This document shows positions 44,461 to 47,299 of a DNA stretch of 64,000 bases, piece after piece (position 1 is the stretch's first letter; every line of letters starts with the position of its first letter). A program made the translations under genes and the position numbers. Under the pieces are notes generated by a model, which was given only the letters and a program-made list of their open reading frames with translations, made no database searches and was not told the DNA's origin. The DNA lies in the NCBI GenBank assembly GCA_028281465.1, contig JANQJV010000029.1, positions 1 to 64,000 of the forward strand. Reading direction: 5' to 3'. The stretch is from Azospirillaceae bacterium (GTDB taxonomy: Bacteria; Pseudomonadota; Alphaproteobacteria; Azospirillales; Azospirillaceae).

Positions 44461-44479
44461 CATGTTGCAATGCAACATG
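44461..44479. promoter_or_regulatory. palindrome downstream of phasin -10 box
   Basis: CATGTTGCA-A-TGCAACATG, a perfect 19-nt palindrome containing TTGC-N3-GCAA. It covers the expected transcription start, so a bound protein would block transcription. Confidence 0.6.
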
Positions 44480-44517
44480 GTTTCCGATCCACCGCGAACC
44501 GAAGAGGACAGGCGATC

Positions 44518-45003
44518 ATGAACCCGTTTATCGATGCCGCGACCACTATGTTCGACTCCATGAGTTTCCGTCCAAAGACCGATCTGCAGACCTGGATGGC
44601 AGCCGGGCGCGATCAACTCGCCGAAGCTGGCCGCAAAATGGTCGCCGGCTACGAAGAAGCGGCAGCCATGGGTCAAGCCAATATGGACGCTGTGATCGAA
44701 GCGGGTGACGCCCTGGCCAAAGGCGCCGGTGCGGTGGGCCAAGCGGTCGGCACCCTTACCCAGTCGGCTATCGAACAATCCATGGCCGCCGGTCAGTCGG
44801 TTCTGGCCGCGCGGACACCGGACGCGATGGTGACGGCGCACGCGGCACTGGTGAAGGTCAACCTGGAGAACACCTACGCGGGAATGGTGAAACTGGCCGA
44901 CGTGTCAACGGCCGCCAGCAAGGCCGCCTTGGCTCCCCTGGCCGCCCGCGCCGGAGCGGTCATGGAGCAAATCAATCAGCCGCTGATGGCACAAGCCCGT
45001 TAG
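44518..45003 (+). CDS. phasin (polyhydroxyalkanoate granule protein)
   Basis: 161 residues, all-helical and rich in Ala, with the phasin-like beginning MNPFIDAATTMFDSMSF and the central amphipathic helix (WMAAGRDQLAEAGRKMVAGY; EEAAAMGQANMDAVIEAGDA). Such proteins coat polyhydroxyalkanoate granules. The start at 44518 follows GAGGACAGG. The promoter is flanked by two palindromes of the TGC-N3-GCA type, consistent with control by PhaR, which leaves DNA when polymer forms. No pha synthase genes are in the window. Confidence 0.82.
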   Translation: MNPFIDAATTMFDSMSFRPKTDLQTWMAAGRDQLAEAGRKMVAGYEEAAAMGQANMDAVIEAGDALAKGAGAVGQAVGTLTQSAIEQSMAAGQSVLAARTPDAMVTAHAALVKVNLENTYAGMVKLADVSTAASKAALAPLAARAGAVMEQINQPLMAQAR

Positions 45004-45694: not shown

Positions 45695-46030
45695 ATGAAG
45701 CGGCCCCCCATTATTCGGTTTCTTCTGATGATTTGTGTGGCCGTTCTGGCCCTCGGTTTTGTTCAAACCGCGCACGCCCAACCGAGCAACGAACCGATTG
45801 AGAAAACCGCATTCGTCAGTCCGGAAACGGTGGGCGTCGGCTGCGGTGCCGGTCTCGTCGCGGGTGCGTTCGCGGCAGCTCTGCCCGCGGTCTGGCCCCT
45901 GCCGGGTCAGCCCACCCTTGTCACCCTGCCGATCGTAACCGCGTGGGGCCTGATCGGGTGCGCCGTGGGCGTCGCCGCAGGCTTGAGCGCGGTTGTCACC
46001 CAGGCTGTCCTCGACTCCTCGCGGATGTGA
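45695..46030 (+). CDS. small secreted hairpin protein 1
   Basis: 111 residues with a strong ribosome site (AGGGAGAAA). Signal peptide 1-30 (FLLMICVAVLALGFVQTAHA, cut before Q). After a short acidic linker come two Gly/Ala-rich hydrophobic segments, each with a Cys: TVGVGCGAGLVAGAFAAALP and GLIGCAVGVAAGLSAVVTQA. Proteins 2 and 3 share the plan. No known family. It could sit in the membrane as a hairpin or assemble through glycine-zipper helices. Confidence 0.75.
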   Translation: MKRPPIIRFLLMICVAVLALGFVQTAHAQPSNEPIEKTAFVSPETVGVGCGAGLVAGAFAAALPAVWPLPGQPTLVTLPIVTAWGLIGCAVGVAAGLSAVVTQAVLDSSRM

Positions 46031-46144
46031 TCCGCACGGCCTTGACCTGCGGCCTTGTTACGCCGCTATCACGCGATGGGTGACGCTCGATCTCGCTTCG
46101 GTTTGGATTGGGTGGAGCGACCGTCCCACTTCGGGAGTTTTGAA

Positions 46145-46555
46145 ATGAAGGCTCGTATCCTCGTTCTGGCATTCTTGTCTGTGTGCCTTGCGTTCGGCAG
46201 CATCGCCGGCGCCAAGCGCGCCCAGGCGCAGCTCATCACACCGTATTTCGTCGCCATGCTGGCCGGTCCCGTCTCGGATGGCTCATCGGTCATCTTGGTG
46301 AAGAAGCGCGAAAACTTCATCAGCATCGAAACGCCGATTATCGCTTGCACATCGGGTGCCGGCGCCGGCCTTATCGTGACCTTTCTGCCGAGCCTCTTCA
46401 ACTGGATGACCACCGGTCTTTGGATGCCGGTCGATATGGGCGAGGCGCTCCTTCTATCGCTCTACGGCTGTGTCGTCTCCGGTGTCGGCGGTGTCGGCGG
46501 TGCTCTCACCGAACTGCTGTTCATCACCCTCAACCCGCCGGAACATCACGGCTGA
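46145..46555 (+). CDS. small secreted hairpin protein 2
   Basis: 136 residues. Signal peptide 1-29 (RILVLAFLSVCLAFGSIAGA, then KRAQA-Q). An extra segment of about 30 residues (LITPYFVAMLAGPVSDGSSV) precedes the two Cys-bearing hydrophobic segments: IIACTSGAGAGLIVTFLPSL and LSLYGCVVSGVGGVGGALTE. Same layout as proteins 1 and 3 in the same direction. Function unknown. Confidence 0.72.
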   Translation: MKARILVLAFLSVCLAFGSIAGAKRAQAQLITPYFVAMLAGPVSDGSSVILVKKRENFISIETPIIACTSGAGAGLIVTFLPSLFNWMTTGLWMPVDMGEALLLSLYGCVVSGVGGVGGALTELLFITLNPPEHHG

Positions 46556-46829
46556 TAAGGGCTTGGCGGCAGGGGATCAAAGTTCCGGTCGTGAGGGGAT
46601 TGGACGCATCGGCCACCAGGCCCTGGGTAAGGCCGATCCCACCCCAACCACACGAGTGGGTGCCACACGCGTGGGTGACCGTGTTCGATTGGTGGCCCAC
46701 TGCGGACGGTCCGCATGATCGCACAGCACCGAGCGGATCGGCTAGACCTCCGCAGAAATGTGTTCGGTTTCCGCGTATCGGTTTCGCTCTCTTTGGCTGC
46801 CGTACCAAACTGATCCGGGAGATATCCTA
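46556..46829. other. gap between hairpin genes 2 and 3
   Basis: 274 bp without a gene. It contains two near-identical 15-bp units (CACACGAGTGGGTGC and CACACGCGTGGGTGA) and a segment resembling 45047-45070. Confidence 0.5.
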
Positions 46830-47177
46830 ATGAAGAAGTTTCTAATGTCGCGTTTTCTGCGCAGCTTCTGCGCAGCTTTCTTTGCCATTGCCCTGATCTT
46901 TCCGTCCGTGGCCCAGGCCCAAACCGAGCCCGCGCCGCAGGTGGAAGAGGAGTTTGTCAGCTGGGACACGCTGACCGTCGGCTGCGCCGCAGGCGGCTTT
47001 GCTTCCGGTGTTGCCATGCTCCTGCCACTTTTCACCACCTATGCGGCCGGCGGTCCGACCTTCGTCACCTGGGAGCTGATGGGTGGCTGGATCGGCCTGG
47101 GCTGTGCGGTCGGCATCTGGGCAGGTGCGCTTGCCATTGGCACGGCTCTTCTGTTGGAAGGCGGTGGCGAGGCCTAA
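46830..47177 (+). CDS. small secreted hairpin protein 3
   Basis: 115 residues from the ATG at 46830, after a GGGAG ribosome site. Signal peptide 1-30 (SFCAAFFAIALIFPSVAQA, cut before Q). An acidic linker (EEEFVSWD) leads to TLTVGCAAGGFASGVAMLLP and GWIGLGCAVGIWAGALAIGT. It is closest to protein 1: (T)VGC(A/G)AG and GC-AVG blocks are shared. Downstream is the convergent DUF2948 gene. Confidence 0.75.
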   Translation: MKKFLMSRFLRSFCAAFFAIALIFPSVAQAQTEPAPQVEEEFVSWDTLTVGCAAGGFASGVAMLLPLFTTYAAGGPTFVTWELMGGWIGLGCAVGIWAGALAIGTALLLEGGGEA

Positions 47178-47299
47178 GGCAACAAGCCCACCGCAACCCT
47201 AGTCGGCTCCTGCTGCAACGGCGGATCGCGTTTTGGCGCGGTCCGCCGTTTCTATTTGCCCTCGTAGCTGACGCTTGTGGCGCCGCTGCCGGTTTCCCG

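Follow-up and report, generated by a model that had tools for sequence, protein, structure and literature searches.

In the outer membrane, TraT assembles as a decameric barrel of helices (PMC11733297); the transmembrane complexes of SlyB are ring-shaped (PMC13067283). Like the 17 kDa antigen, both are lipoproteins, and TraT has a large extracellular domain. The proteins described here resemble these three as small exported Gly-rich helices that would, as we infer for the present case, pack into membrane assemblies. They differ from the SlyB/TraT type in having neither a lipobox nor an extra domain and in carrying a Cys in each helix.

The gene cluster

The window, a 64,000-nucleotide stretch of DNA from an Azospirillaceae bacterium, includes three consecutive genes on the forward strand. 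Gene A (45695..46030) encodes a protein of 111 aa (P0001) with a signal peptide to AHA|Q and a hairpin that includes Cys50 and Cys89. The 136-aa product of gene B (46145..46555; P0002) has a signal peptide to AQA|Q, the conserved segment MLAGPVSDGSSVILVKKR and a hairpin with Cys68 and Cys109, and gene C (46830..47177) encodes 115 aa (P0003) with a signal peptide to AQA|Q and a hairpin with Cys52 and Cys92. All three cleavage sites were assigned by visual inspection of the sequences. All three genes have proper starts, each preceded by a GGGAG ribosome-binding site, and each product has two hydrophobic segments with 19-residue hydropathy peaks of 1.6–2.0. The open reading frames and the pattern described in the original prediction, i.e. 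tandem genes for a signal peptide before Q and two Gly/Ala-rich segments each with a Cys, were confirmed. The Cys indeed lies at the same place in each segment; the motif first given for it was less exact than the GCxxGxxxG found here, which in helix 1 of P0001 corresponds to residues 49–57 (45839..45865, forward strand; from alignment statistics).

Just 3' of gene C lies a terminator-like hairpin (47217..47250, forward strand) of 15 pairs followed by a T-rich tail. Among five terminator-like sites in the region, compared with 3.4 expected by chance, its stem is much the longest. It likely marks the end of the transcription unit. Upstream of the cluster, a profile search identified an aminotransferase gene (PF00155) and a phasin gene (44470..45003, forward strand; PF09361, E=4e-13), the latter treated here as a neighbour. 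Downstream, on the opposite strand, are a DUF2948 gene and a gene of the EPSP-synthase type, read as murA.

Distribution and relationships of the family

Within the order as the genome collection delimits it (82 genomes, all from one family), profile searches revealed 47 members in 8 genomes, with 2–7 per genome. These are the window genome (7), the related metagenome-assembled genome (MAG) G009 (6), five lake/bog MAGs of genus g6 (6–7 each) and Azospirillum oleiclasticum RWY-5-1-1 (2). The members of the window genome outside the cluster are three genes between glnD and murJ and one on contig C178. Conservation in relatives was therefore found by the profile search proposed at the outset, and no characterised family was matched; the occurrence expected in Rhodospirillales was borne out for relatives of the window genome, at a far narrower extent (8 of the 82 genomes). 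In samples of 385 genomes of the class and 398 of the phylum, with at most 14 candidates scored per genome so that very divergent members may exist elsewhere, no members were found beyond the window genome, apart from one false match. This match, in G645 of the phylum sample (E=8e-4), was attributed to chance, as it falls within an ORF of 545 residues that resembles a thiamine-pyrophosphate enzyme. Plasmids and viral contigs gave no family relatives, and an origin of the family from a plasmid or phage was rejected on this ground.

The view that no known family fits was upheld. Searches of Pfam, NCBIfam and PHROGs with P0001, P0002 and P0003 gave nothing meaningful; the PHROG hits were at chance level and lent no support to holins or other phage membrane proteins. 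A profile of 18 members matched no PDB sequence. Pfam families of glycine-zipper lipoproteins were not matched up to E=10 by the three proteins or up to E=0.1 by the 18 members. There is also no lipobox: the mature protein begins with Q after AxA, and its first Cys lies ~20–40 residues further in. Given the missing lipobox and profile match, the proteins were filed as an undescribed family rather than with the glycine-zipper lipoproteins.

The order A-B-C is kept in G009, which belongs to another genus. The G009 orthologs of genes A (L128:6844-7179) and C (L128:7946-8323) are 66% and 54% identical, respectively, and gene B has orthologs in all eight family-bearing genomes. In a maximum-likelihood tree, A, B and C each pair with their own counterpart in G009 (all starred), and a 100/100 split sets the A/C and B types apart from the VFFGC type and the members found in the glnD-murJ region; several branches are long, and the other joins are uncertain. 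The genes are thus paralogues that diverged after duplication, as proposed, and this duplication is not recent: since each has its own ortholog in a second genus, where the gene order is the same, the duplications are old. Of the 47 copies, 29 have a paralogue no more than 2.5 kb away, and at least one A/C-type and at least one B-type member occur in each of the eight genomes. Such co-occurrence would fit the mixed membrane assembly suggested at first, though few lineages stand behind the count.

When the window genome is compared with G009, the mature part has a dN/dS of ~0.16–0.31 (~0.16 for gene A), and the signal peptide a higher value. Purifying selection acts on the mature part and is relaxed in the signal peptide.

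Several more distant candidates were encountered. A tandem pair in G020 (L173:4976-5908, reverse strand) encodes highly diverged candidates whose two Cys are set among Gly in a way that resembles the family. The same kind of Cys-Gly pattern is seen in a candidate of A. oleiclasticum (L174:4903-5379, forward strand; E=0.003) located between purF-like and SDR-like genes, which might connect the family with a wider superfamily in Azospirillum; two of these distant candidates have E values of 0.001–0.003. Another tandem gene set, at L170:9649-11001 and L169:1-252, specifies small exported products (MRKLLITAIVALIGV...AQTQAQ) whose two Gly/Ala-rich segments lack Cys; the two products tested had no match in Pfam.

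Conserved features and predicted structure

The window genes and 44 others encode a signal peptide and two GCxxGxxxG helices with Cys about 40 residues apart. In L089, L171 and L172, which have a long N-terminus, a membrane segment replaces an evident cleavable signal. Both Cys are kept in all 37 aligned members, one per helix, which is far from what chance would give, and the mature protein has exactly these two and no third. Their spacing is 40 in 29 of 37 (range 35–42), and 35–40 in seven additional members beyond the alignment. Position +3 is G for Cys1 and G or S for Cys2 throughout (37/37 each), positions −1 and +7 of both Cys are occupied by Gly or another small residue in nearly all of them, and P is present at +14 of Cys1 in 34. 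Both helices nearly always bear the same motif, GCxxGxxxG, so that nearly every aligned member has two helices with the GxxxGxxxG spacing of the glycine-zipper kind. B-type proteins have an extra N-terminal segment with AGPxSDG, SV and KKR, and 27 columns are invariant over the whole protein in eight sequences.

Structure prediction, suggested with the original prediction for homo- and hetero-oligomers, was carried out on single chains by AlphaFold2 with 13 sequences and gave a signal helix followed by a helical hairpin at moderate confidence (pLDDT ~75). The hairpin was obtained for both P0002 (helices 62–90 and 98–129; helix pLDDT 83–92) and P0003 (45–73 and 81–112). The helical hairpin fold and the existence of the family are well supported. 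In the P0002 and P0003 models, the limits of the helices suggest that the Cys of a pair are out of level along the hairpin by ~10 residues (~15 Å), and a disulfide inside one hairpin is therefore not supported by the models. A Cys link between hairpins, or a wrong register of the models, would be the alternatives.

The helical prediction also bears on the possibility that these are secreted surface-active coat proteins assembling outside the cell. Chaplins are likewise small, secreted and hydrophobic, with two Cys and several paralogues. The present proteins differ in being predicted as membrane-type helices, not β-rich, and in having no chaplin match in Pfam, which makes such a role very unlikely.

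Foldseek gave no significant structural relative, the best values being E=1.5 in the PDB, for TraT as the top match of P0002, and 0.1 among viral proteins, where no structure had a lower value. P0003 gave weak matches to tripartite α-pore proteins (E 6–9). Together with the small, exported, Gly-rich helices occurring in sets of two or three, these would be in line with membrane-active peptides of the bacteriocin or α-pore type, the paralogues being parts of a multi-part pore. The α-pore matches lack significance, however, genes for immunity, export or processing were not recognised near the inspected loci, and conservation at stable chromosomal sites such as glnD-murJ sets the family apart from bacteriocins, so this role is regarded as improbable.

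Genomic context

The main flanking ORFs at the inspected loci, read by eye and in part checked with profiles, are housekeeping genes. The loci differ by genus: the phasin gene adjoins in the window genome and G009 (L025; ~690 bp upstream of the cluster), an FAD oxidoreductase gene in g6, and the A. oleiclasticum locus lies between a CCA-adding-enzyme-like gene and a phosphatase-like gene. Other neighbours are glnD, murJ and a pyrD-like gene. No neighbour is general across the loci, and the context thus gives no function.

In particular, the earlier reservation that nothing ties the cluster functionally to the phasin gene proved justified, as this neighbour is shared with one other genus only. 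Polyester-granule proteins acting with the phasin would be suggested by that arrangement and by a sub-threshold oleosin match of one member (E=0.02). The proteins carry export signals and granules are cytoplasmic, and no phasin was recognised at the other inspected loci, so that a granule function is extremely doubtful.

Secretion-system genes were not recognised among the main ORFs adjoining the inspected loci, which counts against pilin-like subunits polymerising into a filament. VirB2/TraA pilins of type IV secretion share the general plan, in which a signal cleaved at AxA|Q precedes a small hairpin of two hydrophobic helices, and VirB2/TrbC proteins are sometimes present in tandem copies. 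The family differs from them in giving no TrbC/VirB2 match in Pfam at E up to 10 and no PDB sequence match to any pilin, and it has paired Cys in place of the pilin pattern; VirB2 is not known to carry such a Cys pair. Pilin-like subunits are accordingly given little credence.

The two Cys, absolutely invariant inside hydrophobic helices, might instead serve as thiol ligands, binding or passing a soft metal or carrying redox equivalents, and small Cys-containing mercury carriers of the MerF type also have two membrane helices with conserved Cys. The proteins studied differ from the MerF type in their export signal and in having a single Cys per helix, not CC or CxxC, and no metal-resistance genes were recognised beside any inspected locus. 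Metal or redox handling is thus unlikely.

Several other links were considered and rejected. Hidden divergent members at the glnD-murJ junction of other genera were not seen: glnD directly precedes murJ, with no insert, in five other genomes examined, and only in the window genome and G009 did a member turn up there. Each of the five g6 MAGs has a further member that begins ~8 bp downstream of a TMEM43/LUMA-family (PF07787) gene (L166:3824-5459, L167, L168, L169 and L170), and in L171 a member with a long N-terminus is divergent beside a second TMEM43 gene. A general TMEM43 link was dismissed, as the window genome has no TMEM43 match. A shared EcfG-type stress promoter was seen in 1 of 36 upstream regions against 0.6 expected. 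Nor does the family follow phototrophy, since reaction-centre genes occur in 18 of the 82 order genomes and are absent from the family-bearing g6 MAGs and A. oleiclasticum.

The window genome itself carries two distinct pairs of L/M genes for photosynthetic reaction centres, which share ~70% identity (L192, G000:C168:1101-2765, forward strand; L193, G000:C271:577-2251, reverse strand). G009 also has two L/M types (C130; fragments on C78 and C251). Its C130 pair is 78–80% identical to the C271 pair, and the L/M duplication therefore seems older than the two genera. In G005, an apparent IS607-type recombinase and TnpB pair (L028:975-2209; read by eye) lies between two family members.

Proposed function

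The explanation that we favour, tentatively and at a strength somewhat short of probable, is that these are exported membrane hairpins of the glycine-zipper kind, which assemble with themselves or with paralogues and whose Cys pair ties helices or subunits together. As lineage-restricted small membrane proteins, they would lose the signal peptide at AxA|Q after Sec export, and the mature protein is predicted to fold into an antiparallel two-helix hairpin. GCxxGxxxG would give each helix a packing surface of the glycine-zipper type, with Cys beside the first Gly. The hairpins may then insert in an envelope membrane and use these surfaces to pack into homo- or hetero-oligomers whose subunits are paralogues, much as glycine-rich helical hairpins do in other small membrane assemblies. 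Periplasmic oxidation could pair two Cys, within or between hairpins, and so lock the packing. The tandem arrays would provide different subunits, the most conserved putative pair being one B-type (P0002) and one A/C-type (P0001/P0003) gene. By analogy, the closest known mode of working would be that of glycine-zipper envelope hairpins such as TraT and SlyB.

This membrane-hairpin explanation is supported by the invariant Cys pair and the small residues around it, the AlphaFold2 hairpin and purifying selection, as well as by the clustering of paralogues, the presence of A/C and B types in every family-bearing genome and the A-B-C order. The offset in height of the Cys counts against a simple disulfide in one hairpin, unless the register of the models is wrong. 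B-type proteins also conserve a KKR ahead of helix 1 that would face the periplasm, in conflict with the positive-inside rule for the inner membrane, and the lack of a significant Foldseek relative was also counted against this explanation. A fuller version, namely a disulfide-linked, all-α, hetero-oligomeric envelope ring or sheet built from non-lipoprotein hairpins processed by signal peptidase I and arisen in one bacterial family, has a slender chance of being correct. As a guess, the role in the envelope would be structural or stress-protective, not enzymatic.

Judged by sequence, this is a real, undescribed family with no match in the libraries searched and confined to few genera. It can be recognised by a simple exact signature, GCxxGxxxG twice, ~40 residues apart. 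The named isolate A. oleiclasticum has only two clear copies, side by side (L082:8428-9244, contig NZ_JABFFR010000002.1), and hence function is approachable there through one small locus. As a multi-copy, selected family of few genera, it would be a clear case of a lineage-specific envelope component and could reveal the role of invariant Cys inside membrane helices.
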